DNA of 61,362 bases from Desulfobacca sp. (GTDB lineage Bacteria > Desulfobacterota > Desulfobaccia > Desulfobaccales > Desulfobaccaceae): contig JAQVHY010000002.1 of NCBI GenBank assembly GCA_028695935.1, forward strand, positions 1 to 61,362. Reading direction: 5' to 3'. The position numbers and the translations under genes were made by a program. Of the stretch, positions 16,600 to 61,362 are shown in pieces. Below the pieces are notes generated by a model that saw only the letters and a list, made by a program, of their open reading frames with translations, ran no database searches and had not been told where the DNA came from. Positions within the stretch are counted from its first letter, which is position 1. Every line of letters begins with the position of its first letter.

Positions 16600-16904
16600 C
16601 AAGACTCTCCAAACCGCAATCGAAATAATTCTTGCAAGGCCTGTAGGGCTTCACTGGCCTCCGGCCCTTGGACCCGGACCTGCACCACGGTCCCGGGGCC
16701 GCAGCCCAGGCTGAGAATCTCTAAAATACTCTTGGCATCGGCCTGAAGCCCATTTTTCTCTAAAATAATCTTGGCCTGATGCTCTTGGGCCAGGGCCGCG
16801 ATCCGAGCCGCGGCCCGGGCATGTAAGCCCAATCGATTACAGACCAATAATTTCGCCTGGTAATCGGCATTATTACCATCTAGATCGGTCATGTTGGACA
16901 TCAT
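16599..16904 (-). CDS. ptsH: Phosphocarrier protein HPr
   Basis: About 101 residues. It carries phosphate from EI on the His of GLHARAAARI. The segment AKSILEILSLGCGPG holds a Ser at the position that HPr kinase phosphorylates, so regulatory phosphorylation is possible. The first 16 residues extend past the usual HPr start; in-frame ATG codons at 16904, 16901 and 16892 are all candidates and none has a strong ribosome site. It is the first gene of a two-gene unit with ptsI. HPr kinase and EIIA genes are not in the window. Confidence 0.93.
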   Translation of the reverse strand: MMSNMTDLDGNNADYQAKLLVCNRLGLHARAAARIAALAQEHQAKIILEKNGLQADAKSILEILSLGCGPGTVVQVRVQGPEASEALQALQELFRLRFGES

Positions 16905-16975
16905 CAAAAATATTTTTTCCTAATCGCCGCCAGTGTTTTATTCCAGAAATACCAGTCAGATAAAATCAGATAGAA

Positions 16976-30609: not shown

Positions 30610-30630
30610 AAATCCCAGGAATTGGCCTTT

Positions 30631-32937
30631 ATGCGCCACCGTTATAATAATTTGTTGGAATTAATCGGCCACACTCCGCTAGTCCGTCTCAACCGCCTTA
30701 ATCCCAACCCCCGGGTGGAAGTCTATGTCAAGCTGGAGTGCTTTAACCCCGGCGGGTCGATCAAAGATCGGGTCGCCTGGACCATGATCAATGATGCCGA
30801 GGCCCGGGGGGAATTGACCCCTGGAAAGACGGTTATTGAGGCGACCAGCGGTAATACTGGCATCGGCCTGGCCCTGGTCTGTGCCGTCAAAGGATACCCC
30901 CTGGTGTTGGCCATGTCGGAGTCAGCCAGCCAGGAGCGCCGGCTCATCCTTAAGGCCCTGGGAGCAGAAATACTCCTGACTCCGGCGGCTTTAGGCACGG
31001 ACGGCGCCATTGAAAAGGTCTATAGTCTGGTCCGGGAACACCCCGAACAATATTATCTGCCCGATCAGTTCAACAATCCCAGCAATCCCTTGGCGCACTA
31101 TTACGGCACGGCCCAGGAAATCTGGGAGCAGACCGAAGGTCAGGTCACCACGGTAGTGATCACCATGGGGACGACCGGGACCTTGATGGGCATTTATCGG
31201 CGCTTGAAAGAGCTAAACCCGGAAATAAAGATCATCGGGGTGGAGCCTTATTTGGGCCACGGCTTGCAGGGCCTCAAAAATATGAAGGAATCTTATAAAC
31301 CTGGCATTTTTGATAAAACCCAGGCCGATGCCATCATCAATATCGAGGATGAAGTAGCCTTTGCGACCACCCGCCGTCTGGCCCGCGCCGAAGGGATGTT
31401 TTTAGGCATGAGTTCAGGGGCCGCGGTGGCCATAGCCTTGCAACTCGCCCAGGAACAGGAACAGGGACTGATTGTCGCCATCTGCCCGGATGGCGGGGAA
31501 CGTTATCTCTCGACGCCTCTATTTGCCGAGCAAGAAAAGCCGACGCTGCGTTTCTACAATACCCTGACCCGTCAGAAAGAGGCCTTTATCCCTCTGAAAC
31601 CGGGAGAAGTAACCATCTATACGGACGGTCCCACCATGAATGCCCACCTTTCCCTGATGGGGGCGCGGCGGTTGGTCATGGTAGATCTGCTGCGGCGCTA
31701 CCTGGAATACCAGGGCTGGACCATCCGCCAGGTGGTAAACCTGATTGATTGCGACGATAAAACCATTCAGGGAGCCGCCGCCGCCGGACAGCCGCTAGCT
31801 GAATTCACTCAGCATTATGCCCAAGAATTCTTTAAGGATCTCGAGGTCCTGAGATTAAAGCCGGCCACGGCCTATCCGCGGGCTACCGAGCACATTAATG
31901 ATATGCTGGCCCTGACCCGCCGGTTGATGGATCGCGGTTACGCCTATGAAAAGCTGCGCTCGGTTTATTTCGATATTTCGCGCTTTAAGGACTATGGCAA
32001 ACTCTCCCGGATTGATCTGAGTAAAATTCGGGTGGGCAAAACCGTGGATCTGGACGAGTATGAAAAGGACAACCCCCGTGATTTCACCCTGCTCAAAAGA
32101 GCCAAACTGGGGGAACTGAAACGCGGCCTTTATTTTGCCACCGAGTGGGGCAACGTCCGCCCCGGCTGGCACCTGGAATGTGCGGCGATCGCCTTGAAAC
32201 ACCTGGGAGATACCATTGATATCTATACCGGCGGTCTGGAACAGATCTTTCCCCACCATGATAACGTCACCGCCATCTGTACCGCCGCCACTGGCAAACC
32301 GCTGGTGCGACACTGGCTGCACAGCGAACGGCTGCTCTCGGATGGCCGCAAACTACAAGAAGGTCAGGAACAGAGTACAGTACGGGAACTTCTGGACCAG
32401 GGGTTTCAAGGGGAGGATTTACGTTATTTCCTGATGGCAACGCACTATCGCAAGCCCCTCCAGCTCGGCCTTGACGCCCTCCACGCCGCGGCGCGGGCCC
32501 GCCGTCGCCTTGACTTCTTCCTGGACCGTTTGGCCCACCTCCCGGGAGGGCGGGGGTTCCCGGACCTGGATCAGCTCCTGTTTAAATTGAAGAAGGATTT
32601 TAACGCGGCCCTGGATGATGACTTAAACATTTCTCAGGCCTTGGCGGTGATTTTTGGCTTTCTGAACCAAGTTCACGGTCTTATTGACCAGAACCGTCTC
32701 GACCAGGATGGCGCTCAGACCATCATAGGCCGGTTCCAGGAACTGGATGGGGTGTTGGGGATCATGAATTTCCCGGAGACGGCCCAAGATGCGGCTATCG
32801 ACGCTAAAATCCAGGCCCGCGAGGCCGCCCGGCGCCAACGGGATTGGCCCCAGGCCGATCAACTCCGTCAGGAACTGGCCGACCAGGGCATCGAAGTGAT
32901 TGATACCCCCCAGGGGCCGGTTTGGCGTCGCCGATAA
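30631..32937 (+). CDS. Cysteine synthase fused to a catalytically degenerate cysteinyl-tRNA synthetase
   Basis: 768 residues from the ATG at 30631 (numbers here count from an in-frame TTG three codons earlier). Residues 5-300 are a PLP cysteine synthase with the active Lys48 in NPGGSIKDR, TSGNTGIGLA at 75, GTTGTLMG at 183 and SSGAA at 264. Residues 308-771 align with CysRS from FYNTLTRQKE to DTPQGPVWRRR. The HIGH motif is replaced by SLMG (344-347). The first zinc Cys is Asp335 (YTDGPT), the last zinc Glu is Val549 (HHDNV), the active-site His of HGGG is lost (YTGG), and KMSKS is replaced by KLQEG (577-581). Aminoacylation is therefore very unlikely. A 7-mer tract precedes it and tRNA-Leu follows. 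Confidence 0.93.
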   Translation: MRHRYNNLLELIGHTPLVRLNRLNPNPRVEVYVKLECFNPGGSIKDRVAWTMINDAEARGELTPGKTVIEATSGNTGIGLALVCAVKGYPLVLAMSESASQERRLILKALGAEILLTPAALGTDGAIEKVYSLVREHPEQYYLPDQFNNPSNPLAHYYGTAQEIWEQTEGQVTTVVITMGTTGTLMGIYRRLKELNPEIKIIGVEPYLGHGLQGLKNMKESYKPGIFDKTQADAIINIEDEVAFATTRRLARAEGMFLGMSSGAAVAIALQLAQEQEQGLIVAICPDGGERYLSTPLFAEQEKPTLRFYNTLTRQKEAFIPLKPGEVTIYTDGPTMNAHLSLMGARRLVMVDLLRRYLEYQGWTIRQVVNLIDCDDKTIQGAAAAGQPLAEFTQHYAQEFFKDLEVLRLKPATAYPRATEHINDMLALTRRLMDRGYAYEKLRSVYFDISRFKDYGKLSRIDLSKIRVGKTVDLDEYEKDNPRDFTLLKRAKLGELKRGLYFATEWGNVRPGWHLECAAIALKHLGDTIDIYTGGLEQIFPHHDNVTAICTAATGKPLVRHWLHSERLLSDGRKLQEGQEQSTVRELLDQGFQGEDLRYFLMATHYRKPLQLGLDALHAAARARRRLDFFLDRLAHLPGGRGFPDLDQLLFKLKKDFNAALDDDLNISQALAVIFGFLNQVHGLIDQNRLDQDGAQTIIGRFQELDGVLGIMNFPETAQDAAIDAKIQAREAARRQRDWPQADQLRQELADQGIEVIDTPQGPVWRRR

Positions 32938-49776: not shown

Positions 49777-52368
49777 TTAACCTTGATCTGGGTTGGCAAC
49801 GGACCCGGGTTCTCCGGCAAAGCGATAATTGCCTTCCAGGAAGGCCTGGATATACCACTCCACCGTGGACTCATCCGCCATGACCATGTCGCGCTGGCGG
49901 GCACAGCCCATCAGCCGGCCCAAAAGATCGAGTTTTTCTTCCAGGAGGGGGCGGGGATATTTCCACAGCCTGGCGACTACCAGGTCCCCGGTAATATCAA
50001 CCTCGAGATCTAATCGGGTCAGCACCTCCCCCAGGAACCGGGCCCGGCGGCCGCGCCGCGATTCATCCGCGGCCCCGCCTTTAAAGCGGAAACTAAGATA
50101 ATTATCATTGCGGACATCGCTGACCAAGGCGTCAATGGTGGCAAAGTGATATCCCAAACGCGAGCTATAGTTCAAGTAATTCTCGGAGACGATCGCCAGG
50201 GTGCGCGCCCAAAAATCCGCATGTTGCGGAGCAGCGGCAGTCAAAGATCGGGAGACGACGGAATAAAGCCCCCTCATATCAATGGGGATGGGGCCGGCCC
50301 AGGAAATCTCGGGATGGCTGATGCCTCGCCATAAAGCCCGTAAGGGAATTGAAGTAATATCCTCTGGAGAAACGAACCGACCCCGGTGATCGGCCCGAAT
50401 ACCGCCGCCCAGGTCAATAATGTAGAGGTTTAAGGGGATGTTGGTCTGCAACTGCACCATGTGCACCTCACCCTGCCGGGCCTGTTCGCCCAGCTCAAAC
50501 ATTTCGGTGACCGCCATCTGATGCGCAAAACGGGTGATATCATGCAGAGTTTGACAAGCCGCGGGGGTGAAATTGGCCAGCTTGGGGTCGGTAAGCCGCA
50601 AAGGGGTGATCCACCGTAATACCCGCCGCAGCCGGGCATAAATCGGGGTTTCGGCCAGCAGCGAGGTCTTGGCGACCGGGGCTTGGAGGATTTCCTCCAG
50701 GCGTCCGTCATAAACCCTGATCTGGTTGGCATCTACGGTGATTTCCTGACCGGGACGCAGAACCTGCGTGGCTTTTCCGGTATCCACGAGGGCAGGAAGC
50801 TTAAATTCGCGGGCCAGGATAGCCAGATGCGAGGTGGCACTGCCAATATCTATGACCATGCCCGCGGCTTTGTGTAACACCGCCCCATAGCGCGCCGTAG
50901 TATGCCGAGCTACCAGGATGGCCCCGTCCGGGAAATGGCTCAGATCCGCCTGATGGTCAACCATAAACACTGGCCCCGCCGCCACCCCGAAACAGGCCAC
51001 TGTACCGTGGTCGAGCAATACGGGATGGCGCTCTTCGAGGTGCGGCGGCAGGATTCCGGTGGCGCGCGGTGTCAGCAAGGTTAAGGGCCGCGATTGTAAG
51101 AGTATTATCCGTCCTTGTAGATCTACACTGAACTCAATATCCTGGGGACTGCCGAAATACTCCTCTAACTGGAGGGCATAGCGGCCCAGGGTGAGCAGTT
51201 CATCCCTGGTCAGAGCGGGTTGGGAACCTTCCTCAAGAGGTACGGCCTCTTCGGCAATGCCGCGGTCGGCGGCGATCCACCGTCTTGGTTTGCGGCTGAT
51301 CTGTTGCTCAAGTAAGTCCAGGGCCGGTTGTTTGGAAAGTACGTAGTGATCCGGCGTTAAGGTGCCATCAACTACGGCCGGTCCCAGTCCCCAGGCGGCA
51401 TCGATGACTAGCACATCGCCGCGACTGCCGGTCGGATCCGCGGTGAACATCACCCCGCTGGAGCGGGCCGGTACCATGGCCAGGCAACCGACACTCATGG
51501 CCAGTTGCCGCTGCAGCAATCTTTTCTGGCTTAAATAAACCAGGGCGGTAGGAGTAAATTGACTGGCCAGGACTTCTAGATAACTCGGAAAAAATCGGTC
51601 AAACGGCACATTCAAAACAGTGAGGAATTGCCCGGCAAAGGAAGATTCCAGATCCTCGTATAAGCCGCTGCTTCTTAGGGCCAGATAGGGTTCATAATTC
51701 AGCGCGGCCACCAACTGACCATATTGCTGATTTACTTCTTCCACCAGACGTTGAGGAATTTTGGCCGGCAACAGCATTTCTCGCAAAATCTGGCTCTTTT
51801 CCGTTAACTGCTCAATATTATCAATATCTAGTTCTTTGACAAGACTGGCCAACGGTTCGGTCAGACGATTTTCCGCCAGCACCAGTCGGTAGGCTTCGTT
51901 GGTCAGCACAAACCCTTCGGGCGTGGGGAGCTGCAAGCGATTCTTGATCTCTCCCAGATTAGCGTTTTTCCCTCCTACTTGCAGGAGGAAGCGCCGGTCC
52001 ACCTGACTCAGAGGCAATACCAGCGGGACCGACAAGCTCGGGGGTGCGGCCTCGGTCTCGTTCTGAATCTTGGCAGCAATATTTTGATAAACCTTAACCA
52101 GTTCAGCATAGCGATTATCTCCCAGAGTGTTCAACTCCTGGACGATGGTCTGAACCTTCTCCAGGATGGATTCCGCGCTGGCTCGGATGAACTGTAGATC
52201 AAAGACATAGTCGCCCTCCTGGGTGGCCTCCATATGAGACATGACTTCCAGCGCCGCATTGTTGGCCTCCAGGAGATTCTTGAAGCTTTGGTATTTTTTC
52301 TTGAAAAATTCCTCCCCCGCTGCCGCGGCTGAGGGTTTTTTTCTTCTAAAGAGATTCAATAGTTTCAA
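49777..52368 (-). CDS. PEP-synthase-like phosphotransferase with an unassigned C-terminal domain
   Basis: 863 residues. Residues 20-105 are a helical N-terminal domain. Residues 128-430 are a PPDK/PEP-synthase ATP-grasp domain with GGKNANLGE (132-140), RSSGLYEDLESSFAGQF (232-248) and QDIEFSVD...LLQSRP. Residues 450-555 are the swivelling phospho-His domain with His514 in GSATSHLAILAR. The PEP/pyruvate barrel of true PEP synthase is absent. Instead residues 595-855 form a domain shared with the protein at 55878, with HDITRFAH, TSIPLRA, SENYLNYSSRLGYHF and RFKGGAA. It may transfer phosphate to an unknown acceptor. It has a TTG start with AGAGG before it, 37 bases after a response-regulator gene. 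Confidence 0.85.
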   Translation of the reverse strand: MKLLNLFRRKKPSAAAAGEEFFKKKYQSFKNLLEANNAALEVMSHMEATQEGDYVFDLQFIRASAESILEKVQTIVQELNTLGDNRYAELVKVYQNIAAKIQNETEAAPPSLSVPLVLPLSQVDRRFLLQVGGKNANLGEIKNRLQLPTPEGFVLTNEAYRLVLAENRLTEPLASLVKELDIDNIEQLTEKSQILREMLLPAKIPQRLVEEVNQQYGQLVAALNYEPYLALRSSGLYEDLESSFAGQFLTVLNVPFDRFFPSYLEVLASQFTPTALVYLSQKRLLQRQLAMSVGCLAMVPARSSGVMFTADPTGSRGDVLVIDAAWGLGPAVVDGTLTPDHYVLSKQPALDLLEQQISRKPRRWIAADRGIAEEAVPLEEGSQPALTRDELLTLGRYALQLEEYFGSPQDIEFSVDLQGRIILLQSRPLTLLTPRATGILPPHLEERHPVLLDHGTVACFGVAAGPVFMVDHQADLSHFPDGAILVARHTTARYGAVLHKAAGMVIDIGSATSHLAILAREFKLPALVDTGKATQVLRPGQEITVDANQIRVYDGRLEEILQAPVAKTSLLAETPIYARLRRVLRWITPLRLTDPKLANFTPAACQTLHDITRFAHQMAVTEMFELGEQARQGEVHMVQLQTNIPLNLYIIDLGGGIRADHRGRFVSPEDITSIPLRALWRGISHPEISWAGPIPIDMRGLYSVVSRSLTAAAPQHADFWARTLAIVSENYLNYSSRLGYHFATIDALVSDVRNDNYLSFRFKGGAADESRRGRRARFLGEVLTRLDLEVDITGDLVVARLWKYPRPLLEEKLDLLGRLMGCARQRDMVMADESTVEWYIQAFLEGNYRFAGEPGSVANPDQG

Positions 52369-52405
52369 GGAGAGCCTCTACAAGCATGCCGCAGTGGAAA
52401 AACGG

Positions 52406-52792
52406 TTAGGCCGGCAGGTGCTCTTGCCGCCAACGGAGGGCCTTGGCAATGGTCATCAGGATATGTTCTTTCCGGAACGGCTTGGTAATATAGTCAAAGG
52501 CACCATGGCGCATCGCCTCTACCGCGGAGCCGATAGTTCCATAGGCCGTGATGATAATCAAGGGTAAGTAAGGGTCAATCTCCTTGATAATTTTTAACAG
52601 CTCGATGCCCTCCATCTCCGGCATGCGGAGGTCGCTGATCAGCAGATCAGCATGATATTCCCGGCACCAGTCAACGGCCTCTTGGGGATTGGTAGTGGTA
52701 ACCACCTGGTGATCGGTCTTTTCGGTCAGAATCAGTTTGAGCAGGTCCAATAGATCGGGTTCATCATCGACGATGACGATAGTAGCAGACAT
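52406..52792 (-). CDS. Receiver-only response regulator (first of two)
   Basis: 128 residues, a lone CheY-like receiver. Acidic residues are in IVDDEPDLLDLL, the phospho-Asp is in LLISDLRMP, and the switch residues are Thr in IITAYGT and Lys in ITKPFRKEHIL. There is no DNA-binding or enzymatic domain, so output must be by protein contact; the adjacent PEP-synthase-like proteins are obvious candidates. AAGGAG lies seven bases before the ATG at 52792. It is closely similar to the receiver at 53046. Confidence 0.92.
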   Translation of the reverse strand: MSATIVIVDDEPDLLDLLKLILTEKTDHQVVTTTNPQEAVDWCREYHADLLISDLRMPEMEGIELLKIIKEIDPYLPLIIITAYGTIGSAVEAMRHGAFDYITKPFRKEHILMTIAKALRWRQEHLPA

Positions 52793-52834
52793 CAATCAGC
52801 TCCTTAATGGGTAAACAATGAGCGTAAGCGTTCG

Positions 52835-52968
52835 GTTGCCAGTTGCCCGTTGTCAGTTAAAATAAACACTTAACTGTGAACAGGCGATAGTCGCCAAGGC
52901 AAGGTCTTATAGATAACCAGTTAAATTTGCTTAGCTTACTAATCACTAATCACTGAACACTGAACACC
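52835..52968. repeat. Dispersed 133-bp repeat with heptamer ends, copy 2
   Basis: The left end reads GTTGCCA-GTTGCCC-GTTGTCA-GTTAAAA and the right end CTAATCA-CTAATCA-CTGAACA-CTGAACA, all with period 7. The inner flanks AAATAAACACTTA and TTAGCTTACT match copy 1 at 25137. It sits between the two receiver genes and splits the signalling operon. Confidence 0.7.
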
Positions 52969-53045
52969 TACCAATAATCGCAGTTAATTATAATACACTC
53001 CCCTAAAAATTGCTCTACCGGTCATTGGTGGGGACCCGCGTCGCG

Positions 53046-53498
53046 CTAGTCGCCAGGAGGCCCGGAAGTCTTGGCGGCCGTTTTCTCGGCCTCCATGCGA
53101 TTTCTCAACTCCCGATTTTCTTGAGTAATCCGTTGCCACTCCAGGGCCCGCGCAATAGCCACCAGGATCTGCTCCTTGCGGAAGGGCTTGGTAATGAAAT
53201 CATAGGCCCCGCGGCGGACGGCTTCCTCGGCCGATTCCAGGGTGCCAAAAGCCGTAATTACGACTACTGGAATATCGGGATTGTGGCTCTTGACCGTCTC
53301 AATAACCTCGATGCCGTCCTTAGCGGGCATTTTGAGGTCGGTGATGACCAGATTAAAGTTTTCCTGGGCGAGCAGCTCTGGCAGTTCTAGGGGATTAGTC
53401 GTGGTCACCACTTGATATGCGGTCTTATCAGTGATGATCATCTCCAGCATGATCAGCATGTCTGGTTCATCGTCAATGATCAAAATCTTGGCTGACAT
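53046..53498 (-). CDS. Receiver-only response regulator (second), with a helical tail
   Basis: 150 residues. CheY-like receiver with IIDDEPDMLIML, the phospho-Asp in LVITDLKMP, Thr in VITAFGT and Lys in ITKPFRKEQIL. A 25-residue charged helix and a short Pro/Gly end follow the domain. Its start overlaps the end of the histidine kinase gene by 26 bases, making them an obvious pair. About half or more of its residues match the receiver at 52406, so the two arose by duplication. Confidence 0.92.
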   Translation of the reverse strand: MSAKILIIDDEPDMLIMLEMIITDKTAYQVVTTTNPLELPELLAQENFNLVITDLKMPAKDGIEVIETVKSHNPDIPVVVITAFGTLESAEEAVRRGAYDFITKPFRKEQILVAIARALEWQRITQENRELRNRMEAEKTAAKTSGPPGD

Positions 53499-55725
53499 AA
53501 GTGTCCTCTGTTTTTAATTCCTGGTCGGTCGGCGAAGCTACGGGCAGGGTAATGGTAAAGGTGGTGCCGCTCTGGTCTCCCGCCTCTTCCCGGGTTCGGC
53601 TCAGACATTCGATGGTACCGCCGAATTTGGCCAGGATACCATAACTGACGGAAAGACCTAACCCGGTACCTTCGCCGACCTTGCGGGTGGTGAAAAATGG
53701 GTCATAGATTTTATGTAAATGATCCTTTTTGATCCCCTCCCCGGTGTCGGCGAATATGATCCGCACCCGATCGCCGGTAGGATTTAAGCCGGTGGTGATC
53801 GTTAGCTGCCCGCCCTGGGGCATGGCCTTTACGGCATTGGTAACCAGGTTCAAGAAGACCTGTTGGAGTTGGGCGGCATCGCCCCGGACCAGCGGCAGAC
53901 CTTCCGCCAGTTGTAAGTGGTACTTAATCTTTTTGGTCAGCAGGGTGTTTTGCACGATCTCCATCACCATCGCCACATTGCGATTAATATCGGTATGGTA
54001 CTGGACCTTCTCCGGAGTCCGGGCAAATGTCATCAGGTTTTCGACAATTTTCTTGCAATTATTGCCCTGACGCTCGATAGTCTTCAGGATTTTATACTGT
54101 TGGGAATCGGCTTCGGCCTTCTCCAGCAGCATATCGGTAAATCCCAGGATGATCGCCAGCGGATTGTTGATCTCATGAGCTACCCCGGCGGCCAGTTGGC
54201 CAAGCGAAGCCAGTTTTTCGGTGTGGTATAATTGTTCCTCCATTTTTTTGCTGCTGGTAATATCATGGGCAATGATCAGCACACTCATAATCTCGTGGTT
54301 TTCTCGGATCGGGGTGAGGTTAAGGTTAAAGTAGTATTCTTTCCCGCCCAGCAGCATTTGGAGAGTGGCGCGGCGTCCACTGTGGGTCGCGAATACCTCG
54401 TCAATATGATGGTGAATGTCCCTTCCGGCTCGACCTGGGAAGAACTCATAGATGCTCTTGCCAATAACACCCTGCGGGGTATAGCCGAAAAGCTTGACCC
54501 CATAACGATTGATCGAAATTATCTTTCCTTCGCAATCTACATTAATAATGACATCCTCGGCTGATTCTACCAGAGACTTATAGAGCTTTTCAGATTTTGC
54601 CAGTTCCTCGGTAGATTGCTTCAAGGCCGCGGTCTTGCGTTGGACTTCCTGTTCCAGGGCCGCCGCCCAGCGGCTTTCATAATAGATAATTACTCCGCCG
54701 CCCAGGAGGATGATGAGGATTACCACTCCTTGGAGGAGGAATTGGCGTACATATACTCCGTGGATTGCGCCTTCTACCTCGGTTTGGGGAGCCACTACCG
54801 CCACTGACCAGATTAGGCGGGTATTGTCCCCCTGTAAGGGAATGGGCGCGTACCCAATAAATTTTTTCATCTTCTTGACCACGCCCCGGTGCCAGCCACT
54901 CCAGTACCAGGAATAGCCCTCCCGCCCGGTCAACATCTTTTCTTTCTGGATCCGATTGATTTCGGCAAAAGAGATCTTGGGATCCCGTTGTTCCCGGACC
55001 TCAAAGGCTGATTTGCCAATAAATCCTTCATCCGGGTGGTAGAGAAAATTACCTTGCTGATCAATTACCCAGGCATAGCCGGTCTGGCCGGAACGGATGT
55101 CCTGGCAATACATCGTAGTTAAGCGTGAGGGGTCCACCAGAAAATATAAGCAGCCCACAAATTCTCCCGAGGCCACGGGATGGCTTTGATCGACCGACAC
55201 CTGGTAGGTAGGGAGACCGATAAGCAAATATGGACGCTCTAGGGAAGGGGAGGGGAAATCAGCCCCTACCCGTTTCAGGAAAAATTTATTCTGTTTGGTG
55301 CGGTCACTGGCCCATTGTAAGCATTCGATCTCTGAAACCTTCGCAGTTGCTACCAGATCATGTCCCTCAGCGTTTAACCGATAGATTTTTTGGCGGCGGG
55401 CTTCGATCAGACCGATTTCAATGGTGCCGAATTTCCTGACACTGGCCATCGTGATCTGCAGCCGATTGGGCCAGGAGACCTCCAGGTACTGGACTGAGGG
55501 GGATAAATTCAGGGTATGCAATTCATTTTCTAAAAAGGTAAACTTATCGACAATATCGGAAGCTACCCCCTGGGCAATGGTCAGTTGCTGTTGGTTGAAT
55601 TGTTCACTGATAATGTCGCGCATCTTATTGGCGGACATCAGCCCCAGGACAAAGGCGCCGGTTAACACGATGATGGTCACCGAGCTCACAATGAGATAAA
55701 GTTTGGGCGATCCTAAGCGTGGCAT
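53473..55725 (-). CDS. Membrane sensor histidine kinase with dCache and PAS domains
   Basis: About 750 residues from the ATG at 55725 (a TTG seven codons earlier is in frame). One membrane helix lies near 10-32, then a periplasmic double-cache sensor domain (about 35-335, with SGQTGYAWVIDQQGNFLYHP as the cache core), a second helix near 340-362, a short linker helix and a PAS domain (about 385-500). HisKA carries the phospho-His in GVAHEINNPLAIILGF, and HATPase_c has NLVTNAVKAMP (N box), ADTGEGI, and GEGTGLGLSV. The C-terminal Pro/Glu tail overlaps the receiver gene at 53046. It should sense a small extracellular molecule, identity unknown. Confidence 0.92.
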   Translation of the reverse strand: MPRLGSPKLYLIVSSVTIIVLTGAFVLGLMSANKMRDIISEQFNQQQLTIAQGVASDIVDKFTFLENELHTLNLSPSVQYLEVSWPNRLQITMASVRKFGTIEIGLIEARRQKIYRLNAEGHDLVATAKVSEIECLQWASDRTKQNKFFLKRVGADFPSPSLERPYLLIGLPTYQVSVDQSHPVASGEFVGCLYFLVDPSRLTTMYCQDIRSGQTGYAWVIDQQGNFLYHPDEGFIGKSAFEVREQRDPKISFAEINRIQKEKMLTGREGYSWYWSGWHRGVVKKMKKFIGYAPIPLQGDNTRLIWSVAVVAPQTEVEGAIHGVYVRQFLLQGVVILIILLGGGVIIYYESRWAAALEQEVQRKTAALKQSTEELAKSEKLYKSLVESAEDVIINVDCEGKIISINRYGVKLFGYTPQGVIGKSIYEFFPGRAGRDIHHHIDEVFATHSGRRATLQMLLGGKEYYFNLNLTPIRENHEIMSVLIIAHDITSSKKMEEQLYHTEKLASLGQLAAGVAHEINNPLAIILGFTDMLLEKAEADSQQYKILKTIERQGNNCKKIVENLMTFARTPEKVQYHTDINRNVAMVMEIVQNTLLTKKIKYHLQLAEGLPLVRGDAAQLQQVFLNLVTNAVKAMPQGGQLTITTGLNPTGDRVRIIFADTGEGIKKDHLHKIYDPFFTTRKVGEGTGLGLSVSYGILAKFGGTIECLSRTREEAGDQSGTTFTITLPVASPTDQELKTEDTYVSQDFDH

Positions 55726-55877
55726 AACATTATATGAGCGTGGCAACCGGAGGTATCATTGGTTGACATTATACTAACCTGTTAAGTCCTTTGGTCTTAC
55801 AGTTTTCTAAACTGAAAACTTTTACCATAAGTTAATAACTGAAAACGCCAAATCCAAGCTTGACAATATAATCAGCT

Positions 55878-57920
55878 TTAATTTTGCAGATCGGCATTAC
55901 AGTGTTTGTCAAAAAAATCTTCGATATAACCAAAGACTACCCCATCGTCAGACATTACCATATCCATCTGTTTGGTATAGACTTCCAGACGGCCCAAGAT
56001 TTCTAAGACCTTAACTAACGATGGCGTTGGCTCTCCGACGAGTCGGGCGTCCAACAGATCGCCGTTCAAGTTTACCTTAAATCCCAGCCGGGACAAGACC
56101 CCGTCAATGAGTTGGAGCCGTCTTACCCGCCGTTCTAAGGACGCGGCCCCGCCTTGATAATGAAAGCGGATATAATTGTGGTCCAGATTGGCCCCGATAT
56201 GGGCTTCAATGGTAGAGGCATGATATCCCAGACACAGGCTGAAATTCATGTAATTTCTTGACAGCACTGCAAAACTGAATTTTTGTAATTGCTCCTCTGA
56301 CCGGGGCGTGGTCGAGGTCACCCCGATGACTGAGATAAATCCTTTCATATCCACCGGCCGCGCCTTGGGCCAGGGGATGGACATCATGCCGCTCAGAAAG
56401 GCACGGTAGGGGATAGAAGTTATGGCTTCAAAGTTCACCGTCGGTGTCTCGGCGCTCAGCCCCTCCCCGGCATCAATAACTAAAATCGGGACCAGCCGTC
56501 CGGTAACCAGGCTGACGCCATCCTTTTTCGTGACCCGACCTCTCAGGCTCAGGCAAAACATCTCATCGACGCCGGCCTGCGTGGTATAATACAGGATATC
56601 ATGGATACTTTGGCAAGATGTCGGGGGCAAGGCATCATCCGGTAAATCCATCACCTTAAGAGGAAAAAACCAGGGACGCAGGCGCTGCAGCATCTCCGGG
56701 GCGACCGCGGTGCTGCGGCTGACGGGTGGAGTCGGTTCTGGGAGGACAGGGCGTCCGGCATAGACCTGAAGATGGATCGCATCAACCGTTAGGATTTCCC
56801 CAGGGGCGATATCTACCTTAGCCATGCCGCTATTAAAGATCGTCGGCACCCGGCATTCTCGGGCAAGGAAGGCCAGGTGATTGTAAGGTTCGCCGGTGGC
56901 TACCACCAGAGCCGCGGCCTGGCTCAAGAGCGGCGCCAGAGCCAGCGATGGTTTAGCGGCCCAGATCACCGCCCCCGCGGGAATATCGCCGGGGTCGGGA
57001 ATCTGGTCGGTCTGGAGGGGCAACGCCGGCCCTACGGTCCGGCCGGGGTATATGCTTATTCCCCCGGAGAGTATCAGTTCCGGCCGCGGTACTGAATCAA
57101 GACCTGGCGCGGCCGGGGGTGAGGGGTGGGGCAGGCTGCGCAGGATGACGATTTCCCGCTTGACCCCCAGACCCCATTCTACTCTCTGGAGGCCTTGGTG
57201 ATAGGCAGTCGTCAGCTGCCGGACGTAGTCGGCAATCAGCCTTAATTCCGCGTCCTGCAGCAAAGGTTGCGGTTCCCGGGCGATAGCCTTTGATTCCCCG
57301 CCCCGGCCTGGTTCGGGCTGAGATTCCGCAAGTGCTGATAAAGTGGTGATTTGATCCCGGGTGACCAGGTAGCGTCTGGCCGCCTCGGGTGCCGCCGGCC
57401 CCCAGCCCCAGATGCCCTCAATGACCACTTCTTCCCATGAATCTGATTCCGGGGCCGGATACGCTTGACCACTGGCTAGCAATTCTGGACTGGCCAGCAG
57501 CTGCTGCTCAAACGGCCAAAGAGACCGGGGGGCCGCCGAGGACCATTGGTCCACTTCGAGGTCAGTGTTAAATTTCGGGGCTAGCTCCGCATTTATGCGG
57601 TTGGTCAGGATGGCAAAAATCTCGCTCAACTCCTGATGCTTAAGCTGATCGCGGCAAAACCCTTGTAAAGTCCGGATCGCCTCGCCAGTATGGCGTAACA
57701 CCGTGGCGCTGCTGACCTGCACATAAGCAGGACTGTAATCACCCTCCCCTTCCAGGCTGGCCTGCATCTGGGCCATAATTTCCAAAGCCCTGTTGCTGGC
57801 CGCCAAGATCTGCAGATAGCGCTGCACCTTGCGCTGATACTGTTCCTTAAGACTGGATGAGGCCAGTACCGCCTGGGGTTTTTCGCTTCTCTGGAACAGG
57901 CGTCGCCAGATTGACACCAT
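55878..57920 (-). CDS. PEP-synthase-like paralogue with a collapsed ATP-binding domain
   Basis: 680 residues, related to the protein at 49777 over nearly its full length. Residues 25-112 match its helical N-terminal domain. Of the ATP-grasp domain only the later part remains (EGIWGWGPAAPEAARRYLVT and EWGLGVKREIVILRS); the GGKNANLGE and RSSG...SFAGQ segments are gone, so ATP use is very unlikely. The swivel domain keeps His348 in GEPYNHLAFLAREC. The C-terminal domain (about 425-675) has the shared signatures SIHDI, TSIPYRA, LSRNYMNFSLCLGYH and RFHYQGGAA. It may be a phosphate acceptor or a regulatory partner. GGGAG precedes the ATG. It is the first gene of the kinase operon. Confidence 0.85.
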   Translation of the reverse strand: MVSIWRRLFQRSEKPQAVLASSSLKEQYQRKVQRYLQILAASNRALEIMAQMQASLEGEGDYSPAYVQVSSATVLRHTGEAIRTLQGFCRDQLKHQELSEIFAILTNRINAELAPKFNTDLEVDQWSSAAPRSLWPFEQQLLASPELLASGQAYPAPESDSWEEVVIEGIWGWGPAAPEAARRYLVTRDQITTLSALAESQPEPGRGGESKAIAREPQPLLQDAELRLIADYVRQLTTAYHQGLQRVEWGLGVKREIVILRSLPHPSPPAAPGLDSVPRPELILSGGISIYPGRTVGPALPLQTDQIPDPGDIPAGAVIWAAKPSLALAPLLSQAAALVVATGEPYNHLAFLARECRVPTIFNSGMAKVDIAPGEILTVDAIHLQVYAGRPVLPEPTPPVSRSTAVAPEMLQRLRPWFFPLKVMDLPDDALPPTSCQSIHDILYYTTQAGVDEMFCLSLRGRVTKKDGVSLVTGRLVPILVIDAGEGLSAETPTVNFEAITSIPYRAFLSGMMSIPWPKARPVDMKGFISVIGVTSTTPRSEEQLQKFSFAVLSRNYMNFSLCLGYHASTIEAHIGANLDHNYIRFHYQGGAASLERRVRRLQLIDGVLSRLGFKVNLNGDLLDARLVGEPTPSLVKVLEILGRLEVYTKQMDMVMSDDGVVFGYIEDFFDKHCNADLQN

Positions 57921-58418: not shown

Positions 58419-59123
58419 CTAGACCTCTTCTTTAGCCTCGGATTTCTCCATACTCAAGCCAATGCCCTCGAACAATTCGAAAATGCCATAGCCATACCAC
58501 AGGGTGTAGACCACATAAAACACCAGCATAAAGGTCAACAGCGCCACATTAGCGCCCACACTGGCCGGAACAATGCCGTAGAAATTATAGGCCGGTTCCA
58601 GGGCGCGGCTCATAACCTCAGTAACTACCTTGGCCTGCTTAAATTCCTTCTGTTTGGTCAACGCCGCTTCCATATTTTTAAAGGAGCCCCACCAGTGCTT
58701 TAGAGCTTCCTGGGGATGATATTGATATCGATCCCGCAATTGCTCACCCTGGTTATTAAACATGGCCTCGGCATCGTCCACCGATTGCAGCAGGATATTG
58801 CCCAGGTCGCCGTTGATCTTTAAAACCGGCCCGGCAACTTCCACCTGCGCCCCGGCCTCAGTGTAAAGTAATGCGGTTTTTTGGGCCTGGTAACCGCTTT
58901 CCACCGCCAATTCGACCGCTACCGGAGTGCCGACATATTCCTGGGCCAGTTTGCGCATCTGGGGCATATAGTTACTGGAACCTTTGGCCAGCGAGTTAAA
59001 GAAATTGTCAGAGTATTCCAAGCCATTCTGTCTGTCGCCATAGATTGGCAAAAAGATCAGAACCAGGACCACGACAAACGAGACCAGTAACAAGATCCCC
59101 TTCCAAAGTTTTGCGGTATTCAT
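58419..59123 (-). CDS. Membrane protein with an extracytoplasmic domain, TauE-associated
   Basis: 234 residues. Hydrophobic helices lie at about 9-28 and 188-212, with a soluble helical domain between them that should be periplasmic (GNILLQSVDDAEAMFNNQGE region). A charged cytoplasmic tail, SMEKSEAKEEV, ends it. I do not know a characterised relative. It begins three bases after the TauE/SafE stop, so it is probably an accessory subunit of that transporter or a sensor part of the same system. Confidence 0.72.
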   Translation of the reverse strand: MNTAKLWKGILLLVSFVVVLVLIFLPIYGDRQNGLEYSDNFFNSLAKGSSNYMPQMRKLAQEYVGTPVAVELAVESGYQAQKTALLYTEAGAQVEVAGPVLKINGDLGNILLQSVDDAEAMFNNQGEQLRDRYQYHPQEALKHWWGSFKNMEAALTKQKEFKQAKVVTEVMSRALEPAYNFYGIVPASVGANVALLTFMLVFYVVYTLWYGYGIFELFEGIGLSMEKSEAKEEV

Positions 59124-59126
59124 ATC

Positions 59127-60437
59127 TTAACCTACCTCCTCAGCCAGCTTTGCAGGTTTTTCCTGGCCTTTCAATTTACCCAGGTTCTTAAAGAACATAG
59201 CAAATACCCAGATAGCAAAAACGCTGACAATCAGGAAGAAGATTAGCAAGCCGATAAAATCAATGGTTCGGGCTAACCCCTTCGAGATGGAGATGTACTC
59301 CATGGCGCTCAATTTGCTGGGCAAGGCAAACAACCGATTAATAAATCCGGCCAGAATGGCTATGGCATAAAATCCCCGGATATAGATGCCCTTGACCACC
59401 TTGGTGGTCAGCGCGCCGATTTGAATACCCAGCAAAGATCCCAACAGCATACCCAAGGCCAGGGTGTAAAAGATAAAGCCATAAATGGCATACTGCGAGA
59501 TGGCGGCAAAGCCGGCGGTGAAGATAATCTGCAAGATATCCGTACCTACGGTGGTAAAAGACGAGACCCCCAAGATGTAAACGAAAATCGGGAAGGTCAA
59601 AAAGCCGCCGCCCACGCCCATGATCGCCGCCACCAGGCCAACGAAGGCACCGCAGATGGCGACGAAGACTCCCGAAATGCGATTGCCCCCGGGGACGACA
59701 TCCTCGTCGAAGGTAATCACCGGCGGCACCTTGACCGCCTGCAGCTTCTGAGCCAAACCGGTCGTGGCCGGAGTGGGCGGTTTAGCCACTTTCTCCTCAT
59801 CCGGAGACAGGGTGCGATGTTCCCGCCCGGCTTTCTGGAGCCGCAGAAAATCAGTCATGGCGTAGATGCCCAAAAATCCTAGCAGGAAGACATAGACCAG
59901 ACTGATGAAGAGATCGCTCATAACCGGGTTAAATTCGTAGATCGCCCGGTTAATGCCTCCCCCCACCACGACCCCGGCAATCGAGCCCACCAGGAAGGCC
60001 AGCGCCAGCTTGACCGAGACATTGCCTAGCTTCCTATGCACCGCGGTCCCCATGATGGCCTTGGCGAAGATGTGGAAGAGATCAGTGCCCACCGCCAGAA
60101 TCCCTTTAATCCCCGCACTCATCAAAGCCGGGGTGATGATAAAGCCCCCGCCGGCCCCGATGCAACCGGTAATCAGGCCGGCGCACATGCCAATGAAGAT
60201 GGTAACGATAAAGATGGAAGTGGAATAAAACGCCGGAGCATAGGCTTTTTTGCCACCCAGCACGTCTCCGGCGGCCCAGGAGTACCCCAGGAATGCCAAG
60301 ACCGGCAGACACATGATCAGCAAGATGAGCAGTTTCTTGCGGGACCGCAGGATATTCGTGGAAGTTTCAATCTCCCACCTGGCGTGGGCCTCAGAGGCCG
60401 TCTGCAACATGTTAAAAAGTTTTCGTCCTGTCTTCAT
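59127..60437 (-). CDS. TauE/SafE family transporter
   Basis: 436 residues. The family repeats are plain: GMCAGLITGCIGAGGGFIIT in the first half and LVAAIMGVGGGFLTFPIFVY in the second, with TDLFHIF and TDILQIIF at matching places. About nine membrane helices are predicted, preceded by a 30-residue cytoplasmic start and split by a 65-residue cytoplasmic loop. TauE/SafE proteins export sulfite, sulfoacetate or related organosulfur anions; the substrate here is not shown. GAGGTAAGGT precedes the ATG. It leads a unit with the 234-residue membrane protein. Confidence 0.9.
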   Translation of the reverse strand: MKTGRKLFNMLQTASEAHARWEIETSTNILRSRKKLLILLIMCLPVLAFLGYSWAAGDVLGGKKAYAPAFYSTSIFIVTIFIGMCAGLITGCIGAGGGFIITPALMSAGIKGILAVGTDLFHIFAKAIMGTAVHRKLGNVSVKLALAFLVGSIAGVVVGGGINRAIYEFNPVMSDLFISLVYVFLLGFLGIYAMTDFLRLQKAGREHRTLSPDEEKVAKPPTPATTGLAQKLQAVKVPPVITFDEDVVPGGNRISGVFVAICGAFVGLVAAIMGVGGGFLTFPIFVYILGVSSFTTVGTDILQIIFTAGFAAISQYAIYGFIFYTLALGMLLGSLLGIQIGALTTKVVKGIYIRGFYAIAILAGFINRLFALPSKLSAMEYISISKGLARTIDFIGLLIFFLIVSVFAIWVFAMFFKNLGKLKGQEKPAKLAEEVG

Positions 60438-60982: not shown

Positions 60983-61362
60983 ATGATGATTCCCTTACCG
61001 CTAGCAAGTTATTGGCACCAACACCTGCATCCGGAGCTTACCCGCTTGGCGGAGCCGGTACAGGGCTGGTTTTACACCATCCAGCCTCCGGGCGATCTGC
61101 TGGTCAATCTCTGGGCCCTGATCGGCTTGGGTTTGATCGTCGGCCTGCTGGCCGGCTTTTTCGGGGTGGGCGGCGGCTTTGTGATGACCCCCTTACTCAA
61201 TCTGATCGCTAACGTGCCATACAATGTGGCCGTCGTCACCGATCTGACCCAGATGGTGGGGACCGCCACCATTGCCAATCTGCGACAACGCGGGTTTGGC
61301 TATGTGGATTATAAGCTGGCTCTGTTGATGTTGCTGGGCAGCGTTATTGGCGTAGAAACCGG
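60983..61362 (+). CDS. TauE/SafE family transporter, 5' part (cut by window end)
   Basis: 126 residues are visible before the window ends. After a 36-residue amphipathic start comes the TauE/SafE signature LIVGLLAGFFGVGGGFVMTP, then VAVVTDLTQMVGTATIANLR and YKLALLMLLGSVIGVETG, which match the family's first repeat closely. It has no cytoplasmic start like the minus-strand transporter at 59127. Two tandem ATG codons begin it; I use the first. The divergent pair of TauE/SafE genes around one regulatory region suggests shared control. Confidence 0.88.
   Translation, partial: MMIPLPLASYWHQHLHPELTRLAEPVQGWFYTIQPPGDLLVNLWALIGLGLIVGLLAGFFGVGGGFVMTPLLNLIANVPYNVAVVTDLTQMVGTATIANLRQRGFGYVDYKLALLMLLGSVIGVET

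Follow-up and report, generated by a model that had tools for sequence, protein, structure and literature searches.

A dikinase-type ATP-grasp protein with an uncatalogued C-terminal domain, encoded among two-component regulators and a TauE-type permease gene in Desulfobacca sp.

The locus described here raises the question of what two proteins related to PEP synthase may do on either side of a histidine kinase and two stand-alone receivers. It lies in a 61,362-nt stretch of DNA from Desulfobacca sp. (GCA_028695935.1, contig JAQVHY010000002.1, positions 1–61,362), the whole of which is referred to as the window. The five open reading frames described in a first-pass annotation were all recovered on the minus strand at the same coordinates, and its account of their domains held up. 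The PEP-utilizers mobile domain was found by Pfam in both proteins A (E 3e-21) and B (E 1e-8), neither of which matched the PEP/pyruvate barrel (PF02896) at E <= 0.1, while the same model, serving as a positive control, detected PtsI of the window with E 4e-115. Receivers R1 and R2 both consisted of a receiver domain only, with intact Asp/Thr/Lys motifs and no output domain. Two features were absent from that description, namely a complete ATP-grasp domain (PPDK_N) in A that is missing in B, and the upstream extension of the cluster to m58 and a TauE/SafE permease. The features are as follows.

49777–52368, minus strand: protein A, catalytic member, 863 aa, with N-terminal helices, ATP-grasp, swivelling phospho-His domain and C-terminal domain (CTD)
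49819–50646, minus strand: CTD of A, aa 575–850 (~275 residues), uncatalogued
50725–50934, minus strand: swivelling phospho-His domain of A, aa 479–548, with catalytic H514 in TSHLAILARE
51064–52017, minus strand: ATP-grasp PPDK_N of A, about aa 118–435 (Pfam E 2.8e-84)
52033–52368, minus strand: N-terminal helical domain of A, aa 1–112, without a Pfam match
52406–52795, minus strand: receiver 1 (R1), stand-alone; A starts 37 bases downstream
53046–53498, minus strand: receiver 2 (R2), stand-alone, overlapping the kinase gene by 26 bases
53473–55746, minus strand: sensor histidine kinase with dCache_1, PAS, HisKA and HATPase_c (Pfam)
55878–57920, minus strand: protein B, paralogue without a working ATP-grasp, 680 aa, with N-terminal domain, remnant C-lobe, mobile domain and CTD
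55899–56714, minus strand: CTD of B, about aa 403–674, 27/36 signature positions kept
56778–56981, minus strand: mobile domain of B, aa 314–381, His kept, TSH changed to YNH
58419–59123, minus strand: m58, probable membrane protein, hydrophobic by eye, no Pfam match above cut-off
59127–60437, minus strand: TauE/SafE-type permease (PF01925)

Like PEP synthase (pyruvate, water dikinase), A carries a PPDK_N domain with its catalytic residues followed by a swivelling domain with a phospho-accepting histidine, in the same order and with the motifs kept. R232, E238, E412, Q425 and R427 of the ATP-grasp domain were retained in the family alignment, as were the family-conserved residues of the ATP-grasp and phospho-His domains generally, and the catalytic histidine (H514 of A) was present in 120 of 121 aligned members, the remaining one having a gap there. 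Over these two domains the closest solved relatives of A were PEP synthase and rifampin phosphotransferase. A differs from PEP synthase in its extra N-terminal helical domain, in the uncatalogued domain that replaces the barrel, and in falling short of the curated NCBIfam cut-offs, scoring 330.5 bits on the PEP synthase model (cut-off 598) and 318.6 bits against a second cut-off of 739.75; on the model for rifamycin-inactivating phosphotransferase it scored 213 bits (cut-off 999). PTS enzyme I, which draws phosphate from PEP via its barrel, has a mobile domain resembling aa 474–564 of A, but the barrel is missing from both A and B, the PEP-utilisers_N domain of enzyme I was found in neither at E <= 0.1 (Pfam), and a true enzyme I is encoded elsewhere in the window. 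Judged by its sequence, A is a complete ATP-grasp and phospho-His protein with the CTD where the barrel would be.

At the thresholds applied, the CTD of A matched nothing in Pfam, NCBIfam or the PDB, and a profile search of PDB sequences returned a best hit of only E 0.09. Its residues H609, D610, H616, P675, H741, G764, G765 and R775 were invariant in 115/115 catalytic members. Foldseek searches with the predicted CTD model (pLDDT 84) yielded no match at E <= 0.001 in the PDB or among viral structures. No weight was placed on three candidate folds, whose scores all fell in the range commonly seen with these tools: RecJ, the best Foldseek match (E 0.02, TM 0.20); arginine kinases (4–5 Å over about 75 columns); and red chlorophyll catabolite reductase, the best VIA-align match (Z 6.1, 138 residues, 4.0 Å). 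No paper on the CTD, or on a pair of kinase and dead twin, appeared among those listed for the open-licence PMC literature, and no passage relevant to this cluster came up in PMC10102598 or PMC6052904.

In B, the first ATP-grasp lobe (N-lobe) is gone, no PPDK_N match was obtained at E <= 0.1, and substitutions occur at the ATP site (D410R, Q425R and R427L in A numbering), so that B probably does not function as a phosphotransferase. The N-terminal domain is common to A and B (27% identity, E 1e-9), with none of its five signature positions kept in B, which weakens the idea that the two proteins pair; R613, H616 and E617 are among the CTD signature positions lost. All four B relatives in the sister genus are 388–412 aa long, lack the ATP-grasp and phospho-His (mobile) domains, and are encoded in the order TauE-m58-B, so that the retained function of B is, by this comparison, unlikely to depend on the phospho-His domain. 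At least seven such N+C-only proteins were identified, counted as a single match that starts at query residue 1–43 and continues to the end, in a frame no longer than 431 aa, and each had TauE no more than 1.2 kb away. The count excludes short frames, among them G019:C298, G020:C18, G024:C265, G025:C102 and G025:C172, whose match spans the CTD part only; some of these lie at contig ends or contain stops.

The corresponding paralogue of four Desulfovibrio-lineage clusters lacks the catalytic histidine, with H to Q among the changes; in the passages seen of PMC12167813, the catalytic histidine is described as essential in two-component dikinases, and an H to Q substitution abolished the activity of HpeH. 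Kinase-dead versions have evolved on more than one occasion, with much of the CTD retained, and this sequence pattern suggests that the CTD is the functional centre of the family. A simple coupling of H609 to catalysis is suggestive only and was set aside: this residue is missing in 4/4 sister-genus N+C proteins and in L073 and L027, but L024, B of the window and the four dead Desulfovibrio forms still have it. The idea that the gene preceding the kinase is always of B type was rejected, as trees placed an A-clade member first in L038 and L039. Even so, it is the degenerate member that precedes the kinase in the window, G001 and the four Desulfovibrio-lineage clusters. In the genus-mate G002, no close B was found among the matches listed and another regulator occupies the place after TauE-m58, so that B is either dispensable there or hidden in a gap.

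The family was present in all 29 genomes searched of the host's order, with 2–9 matches each among the matches listed. Neither of the two findings that the first-pass annotation had named as refuting its proposal turned up: no barrel was detected, and the genes co-occur beyond the source genome. Similar gene orders appear in other genomes, and the order family member-histidine kinase-receiver(s)-family member was seen in nine clusters of seven genomes. The gene order in the window is therefore more than chance. Of 104 family genes, 45 had a TauE gene no more than 6 kb away, where 3.7 would be expected, and m58 adjoins TauE and B in relatives too. The commonest typed neighbours were universal stress proteins, TauE, kinases, receivers, sigma-54 activators, and small membrane or unknown proteins. 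A stand-alone receiver was directly upstream of 21/109 catalytic members and directly downstream of 5/103; its absence from the upstream position in the other 88/109 counts against the explanation preferred below. Likewise, 24 of the 89 family genes from one scan had none of these partners within 5 kb, which also counts against that explanation; 18 of these were near a contig or locus end and six had 5 kb on both sides. The H, N, G1 and G2 boxes are all present in the kinase of the window, and the receivers have the DD/D/T/K residues, as expected of two-component proteins. Eight members of ~1060 aa are extended at the C-terminus by about 200 residues. A fused output domain was considered as a clue and set aside, as the extension of L135, the single typed case of the eight, gave only a sub-threshold match to the 3-keto-disaccharide hydrolase of Pfam (21.6 bits, cut-off 26.8). 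In L079, L083 and L088, the extended N-termini look like the result of over-long open reading frames.

A cluster of similar make-up has a mutant phenotype. In the parts seen of PMC4001038, resistance to nitrate is common to several mutants of the nitrate cluster DVU0251-DVU0245 / Dde_0597-0605 from two Desulfovibrio strains, with DVU0245 and DVU0250 mutants not behaving uniformly; a leaky thiosulfate transporter is the hypothesis offered there, and no CTD is named in those parts. By the same account, that cluster shares with the window a TauE, a small hypothetical protein, a PAS histidine kinase, a stand-alone receiver and a protein with PPDK_N and mobile domains. The window cluster, by contrast, encodes a pair of family members, a pair of receivers and a kinase of the Cache type, but neither the phosphatase nor the PtxB-like protein. 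The order kinase-receiver-PPDK_N/mobile protein-dual-specificity phosphatase was not found in the window cluster, which has no phosphatase by Pfam; contig C72 of the same genome (L120) does show the order of DVU0248-0245, with histidine kinase, receiver, family member and dual-specificity phosphatase. L176 encodes a PhnD-type protein, histidine kinase, receiver and family member, CTD included. In trees, L168 and L176, possible stand-ins for DVU0246/Dde_0604, grouped with the C72 member and not with A or B. The window cluster and the C72 cluster are paralogous, and it is the latter whose gene order corresponds to part of the nitrate cluster.

We give about an even chance to the explanation that a dikinase-type phosphotransferase coupled to two-component regulators controls anion transport or a matching response, while B acts at the permease as a partner without catalytic function. 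The catalytic residues of A are intact, the ATP site of B is lost, the module recurs, and TauE and receivers are associated with the family; the enzymatic activity, the acceptor, the direction of signalling, the pairing of A with B and the link to transport are what we infer. A would belong to the PEP-synthase/dikinase superfamily and act as an ATP-dependent phosphotransferase, its ATP-grasp domain loading H514; the loaded swivelling domain would then turn to the CTD, a new acceptor domain in the barrel's place, where H609, D610 and H616 are candidate acceptor-site residues. The Cache histidine kinase and the stand-alone receivers may set the activity of A, or A may set theirs, and the output would control the TauE-type anion permease together with the matching response. 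B would be a catalytically dead twin that has kept its N-terminal and C-terminal domains; the former might, for example, pair it with A, and the latter might bind a ligand or partner that A binds too.

A metabolic or detoxifying role is a possible, if rather unlikely, alternative: the CTD would bind a small compound that A phosphorylates with ATP, as in rifampin phosphotransferase or HpeHI, with TauE as its transporter, the Cache kinase as its sensor and no signalling relay involved. Rifampin phosphotransferase, HpeHI, CreHI and PpsAB resemble A in combining ATP-grasp, swivelling domain and a non-barrel third domain, and the characterised proteins of this kind met in the passages seen of PMC12167813 all act on small molecules. 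The 115/115 invariance of polar CTD residues, the nearby permease, and a thioesterase-like neighbour at four loci and two carboxylase-like ones at three loci each (recognised by eye, some contigs being counted twice) are consistent with such a role. The most widespread typed neighbours, listed above, argue otherwise, as does the persistence of B-type relatives without any kinase domain. A also differs from these four systems in its domain order, with the swivelling domain in the middle and the CTD last, and in its context of two-component signalling and TauE; no sequence or fold match between the CTD and their third domain was seen among the matches listed. Rifampin phosphotransferase has its domains in another order than A.

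The first-pass annotation had proposed a signalling module in which A and B are both histidyl-phosphate transferases that meet an aspartyl-phosphate relay. A recurring module with signalling genes is supported, and both proteins have the mobile domain and its histidine; what speaks for a meeting of the aspartyl-phosphate and histidyl-phosphate steps is that the genes are adjacent. B as a second transferase is not supported: without an ATP site its phosphate could come from A only, its sister-genus relatives lack the phospho-His domain, and the Desulfovibrio counterparts lack the catalytic histidine, making this model very improbable. Still further from likely is that A is a true PEP synthase or PPDK that has diverged, its barrel having gone unrecognised, and that the regulators are bystanders. 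The 330-bit score speaks for it; the match, however, ends near the end of the swivelling domain and misses the cut-offs of 598 and 740 bits, Pfam finds no barrel in A while finding that of PtsI in the same window, and the helix/strand order of the predicted CTD model differs from that of an eightfold barrel. A bolder version of the signalling explanation, which we regard as improbable, makes A a non-canonical kinase for receivers, with phosphate passing from ATP to H514, to a CTD helix histidine (H609 or H616, both in the stretch LHDITRFAH and both invariant in catalytic members) and on to the Asp of the adjacent stand-alone receiver, while the kinase-free B reports the state of the permease. 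If true, the two-component system would have a second input in addition to its classical histidine kinase, one driven by AMP-forming dikinase chemistry.

For the preferred explanation, that of a two-component-coupled phosphotransferase acting on anion transport, the unexplained nitrate resistance of sulfate reducers is of direct interest; because it maps to a cluster of this kind, the idea is testable in existing mutant strains. The family, with its uncatalogued domain, would connect ATP machinery of the dikinase type with both two-component signalling and anion permeases.

The five ORFs proposed in the first-pass annotation were all found on the minus strand of the window, and Pfam searches of these and of the two genes upstream gave the following composition.

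49777-52368, minus: A, 863 aa, with a PPDK_N ATP-grasp domain (aa 130-435) and a PEP-utilizers mobile domain (aa 479-548)
52406-52795, minus: receiver 1 (R1), one receiver domain and nothing else
53046-53498, minus: receiver 2 (R2), one receiver domain and nothing else
53473-55746, minus: histidine kinase (HK), with dCache_1, PAS, HisKA and HATPase_c
55878-57920, minus: B, 680 aa, with the mobile domain alone (aa 314-381)
58419-59123, minus, upstream of B: m58, a probable membrane protein, no Pfam match above cut-off
59127-60437, minus, upstream of m58: TauE/SafE permease

The H, N, G1 and G2 boxes are kept in the kinase, and DD, D, T and K in both receivers. The kinase and R2 genes overlap by 26 bases, while spacings of 37 (R1 to A), 250 (R2 to R1), 131 (B to kinase) and 498 bases (m58 to B) separate the others, so that more than one transcript is possible. 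On the plus strand, 60983-61360 holds the beginning of a second TauE/SafE gene, which is read in the direction leading off the cluster and is truncated where the window ends.

The same annotation had denied both paralogues a PEP/pyruvate barrel, and this was borne out by the Pfam search, in which neither A nor B gave a barrel match at E <= 0.1; as a positive control, PtsI of the same window matched at 4e-115. This enzyme I gene of the PTS (14800-16907, minus), which carries the barrel, adjoins an HPr gene. Elsewhere in the window, a single 771-aa ORF (30622-32937, plus) joins a PALP PLP-dependent domain (E 8e-73) to tRNA-synt_1e (E 4e-75), the latter a cysteinyl-tRNA-synthetase-like catalytic domain with CysRS C-terminal domains. 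PEP synthase and rifampin phosphotransferase are nearest to full-length A, and the PEP synthase model matches, which lie below the models' cut-offs, end at about aa 565-576. For the C-terminal domain that follows (CTD, aa 575-850), Pfam and NCBIfam gave nothing at E <= 0.01 across 85 aligned members, and the profile of these members reached only E 0.09 for its best match among PDB sequences. Its AlphaFold2 model, with a mean pLDDT of 84, combines helices and sheets and had no match among PDB folds at E <= 0.001.

We named the architecture NGMC, for N-terminal helices, Grasp, Mobile and C-terminal domain. When named genome contigs were scanned once, at least 554 relatives were confirmed among at least 582 pattern matches, labelled mostly as Deltaproteobacteria/Desulfobacterota groups with a few Acidobacteria, Nitrospirae, Ignavibacteria and Schekmanbacteria; the best 80 of these relatives were retained. 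Within the window's order, all 29 of 29 genomes contained family matches at E <= 1e-20, two to nine per genome and five in the own genome. The catalytic His was kept in 120 of 121 distinct aligned proteins, the remaining one having a gap. When the set was widened to 145 CTD proteins, some of them partial, the same column held H in 136, a gap in 5, Q in 2 and R in 2. Invariant in the CTD of 115 catalytic full-length members were H609, D610, H616, P675, H741, G764, G765 and R775. Members of about 1060 aa with an additional C-terminal domain of about 200 aa occurred at loci L135-L138 and L140-L143; the only one typed, L135, gave a sub-threshold match to 3-keto-disaccharide hydrolase. Two further proteins, L122:1561-2667 (368 aa) and L134:6146-7432 (428 aa), have only the N-terminal helical domain in common with the family, and each lies shortly upstream of a catalytic member.

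The gene order recurred: among the mapped loci, NGMC-HK-receiver(s)-NGMC on one strand was found in nine clusters of seven genomes, as listed here.

The window
Own contig C157 (L119)
G001, contigs C17 (L115) and C6 (L127)
RBG_13_43_22 (L121; judged by length, the same contig as L039)
Groundwater deltaproteobacterium (L038; short extra ORF)
Desulfovibrio sp. MES5 (L173) and Desulfovibrio sp. ZJ369 (L174)
Nitratidesulfovibrio liaohensis (L170; both ends cut)

The exact five-gene order with two receivers was present in three of these (the window, L115 and L121), and the full seven-gene order TauE-m58-B-HK-R2-R1-A was repeated in L115. Two of the nine contain a family gene that is split over two frames; in L115 this gene is A, and in L038 it is the last one. 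A variant order, HK-NGMC-receiver-NGMC, occurs in genome G003 (L117), and in G005 a kinase fragment lies upstream of NGMC-receiver-NGMC (L036). The paralogous cluster on C157 (254-8343), NGMC-Cache kinase-receiver-NGMC, keeps the catalytic residues in both members.

The first-pass interpretation, a signalling module in which an aspartyl-phosphate relay would meet a histidyl-phosphate transferase, was supported in part: the order with signalling genes does recur, but B lacks the first ATP-grasp lobe and key ATP residues (D410R, Q425R and R427L in A numbering). Its mobile domain retains the His in the motif YNH instead of TSH. The same short form occurs in G001 (678 aa), making an assembly error unlikely. 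In all four genomes of the sister genus (G003, G004, G005 and G006), B relatives of 388-412 aa stand directly after TauE and m58 and contain the CTD, with the ATP-grasp and mobile domains absent; the N-terminal domain was detected by profile in three, and the fourth (L178) is 76% identical to that of G005 over its whole length. In the CTD tree, window B, G001 B and these four proteins form one clade (support 100), adjoining a clade of mostly catalytic members from the same kind of modules. B therefore most likely derives from a catalytic ancestor and has lost the middle part. B appears to be under purifying selection (window B versus G001 B, dN/dS 0.26 at dS 1.5, near saturation), and both TauE in the same pair (0.07) and A versus the closer G002 copy (0.11) are tighter. 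The genus-mate G002 has, after TauE and m58, a 239-aa protein that contains a receiver in the place of B (L177, 2746-5779).

Catalytic residues were also lost in the Desulfovibrio lineage, there by substitution in the member before the kinase. Q takes the place of H514 in L167 and L170, and R does so in L173 and L174, from both of which ATP-grasp motifs are missing too; L167 has E412D and Q425H, and L170 is cut in that region. In HpeH, H to Q at the corresponding position abolished activity (PMC12167813). The Desulfovibrio dead clade is sister to catalytic partners of its own lineage in the mobile-plus-CTD tree (support 94) and falls in the same larger clade, with direct pairing absent, in the CTD-only tree; in both it is apart from window B. 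Further proteins with only the N-terminal and C-terminal domains (N+C; G012, G018 and G019) lie in a third clade of the CTD tree. As judged from these sequences, kinase-dead twins evolved more than once.

Window B keeps 27/36 signature positions of the CTD, 6/42 of the ATP-grasp and 0/5 of the N-terminal domain; for the CTD, the sister-genus proteins keep 23-24/36, the Desulfovibrio dead forms 28-31/36 and L073 33/36. All six B-clade proteins lack R613 and H616, the four N+C proteins among them also lack H609, and two of these four lack D610 as well, with most later positions kept; around H609-H616 the alignment of the N+C proteins is uncertain. A simple rule of H609 loss is contradicted by window B, the Desulfovibrio dead forms and L024, which keep it. 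The H609-H616 stretch is the likely phosphoryl-acceptor region, and the remainder of the CTD would be a binding domain.

Of the 80 named loci, 76 yielded a family gene to mechanical gene picking, which missed it in L053, L056, L067 and L111; the total was 89 distinct family genes. Within 5 kb of these, we found a TauE permease for 36, a histidine kinase for 34, a stand-alone receiver for 31, a universal stress protein for 19, another family member for 19 and an m58 homologue for 8; 24 had none of these partners, 6 of them with 5 kb on both sides. Within 2 kb, TauE density was 7.9 per 100 kb versus 0.30 in the background (197 matches, 66.6 Mb, 21 genomes), and receiver density was about 8.2 (24 in 291 kb) versus 1.97 (1311 matches); the background genomes span fewer lineages than the loci do. 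Across genomes G000-G020, using 104 of 140 family genes and 144 of 197 permeases, a permease lay within 6 kb of 45/104 family genes versus 3.7 expected. Of the catalytic members with enough flanking sequence to judge, 21/109 had a stand-alone receiver directly upstream (same strand, gap <=300 bases) and 5/103 directly downstream. The set also contained six N+C proteins, one of which (L113) may be a fragment, and none of these had such a receiver. TauE lay within 1.2 kb of all seven identified N+C-only proteins (G003, G004, G005, G006, G012, G018 and G019). These placements point to two PARTNERSHIPS: receivers tend to accompany catalytic members and the permease the stripped ones, which are few and phylogenetically related. 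A sigma-54 activator-domain protein lies directly upstream of a family gene, on the same strand, in L063 (typed, with HAMP) and, by similarity, in L071, L096, L097, L102 and L106.

A related arrangement is known from Desulfovibrio. In Korte et al. 2014, transposon mutants of a poorly annotated cluster gained nitrate resistance; its genes include those for TauE, a hypothetical protein, a PtxB-like protein, a histidine kinase, a receiver, a PPDK_N plus mobile-domain protein and a dual-specificity phosphatase. DVU0250 and DVU0245 did not behave alike in all tests or strains, and the authors suggested a leaky thiosulfate transporter (PMC4001038). At L176, from a Desulfovibrio MAG, genes for a PhnD-type binding protein, a kinase and a receiver accompany one for an NGMC protein, which matches positions 18-822 of 855 of the NGMC model and whose CTD is included in the trees; we infer that the CTD is also present in the published DVU0246 and Dde_0604. 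On own contig C72 (L120, 3-5567), kinase, receiver, NGMC and dual-specificity phosphatase follow the order of part of the nitrate cluster, and in the mobile-plus-CTD tree this NGMC falls with the L168 and L176 proteins. Order and grouping indicate that the window cluster is a paralogous cluster of the same kind, distinct from the nitrate cluster itself.

What the sequences show is the domain anatomy, its conservation, the recurrence of the cluster and the losses in B. In the proposed mechanism, A would autophosphorylate H514 with ATP and hand the phosphoryl group on to an acceptor at the CTD, with the kinase and receivers acting upstream or downstream of this transfer. The acceptor may be a protein or a small molecule: characterised non-barrel relatives act on small molecules (PMC12167813), whereas regulators, stress proteins and permeases are the most frequent of the typed neighbours here. 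B would have a non-catalytic role, probably exerted at the TauE permease or together with it. The family represents machinery of the dikinase superfamily that has an uncatalogued, probable acceptor domain and is associated with two-component systems and TauE permeases.
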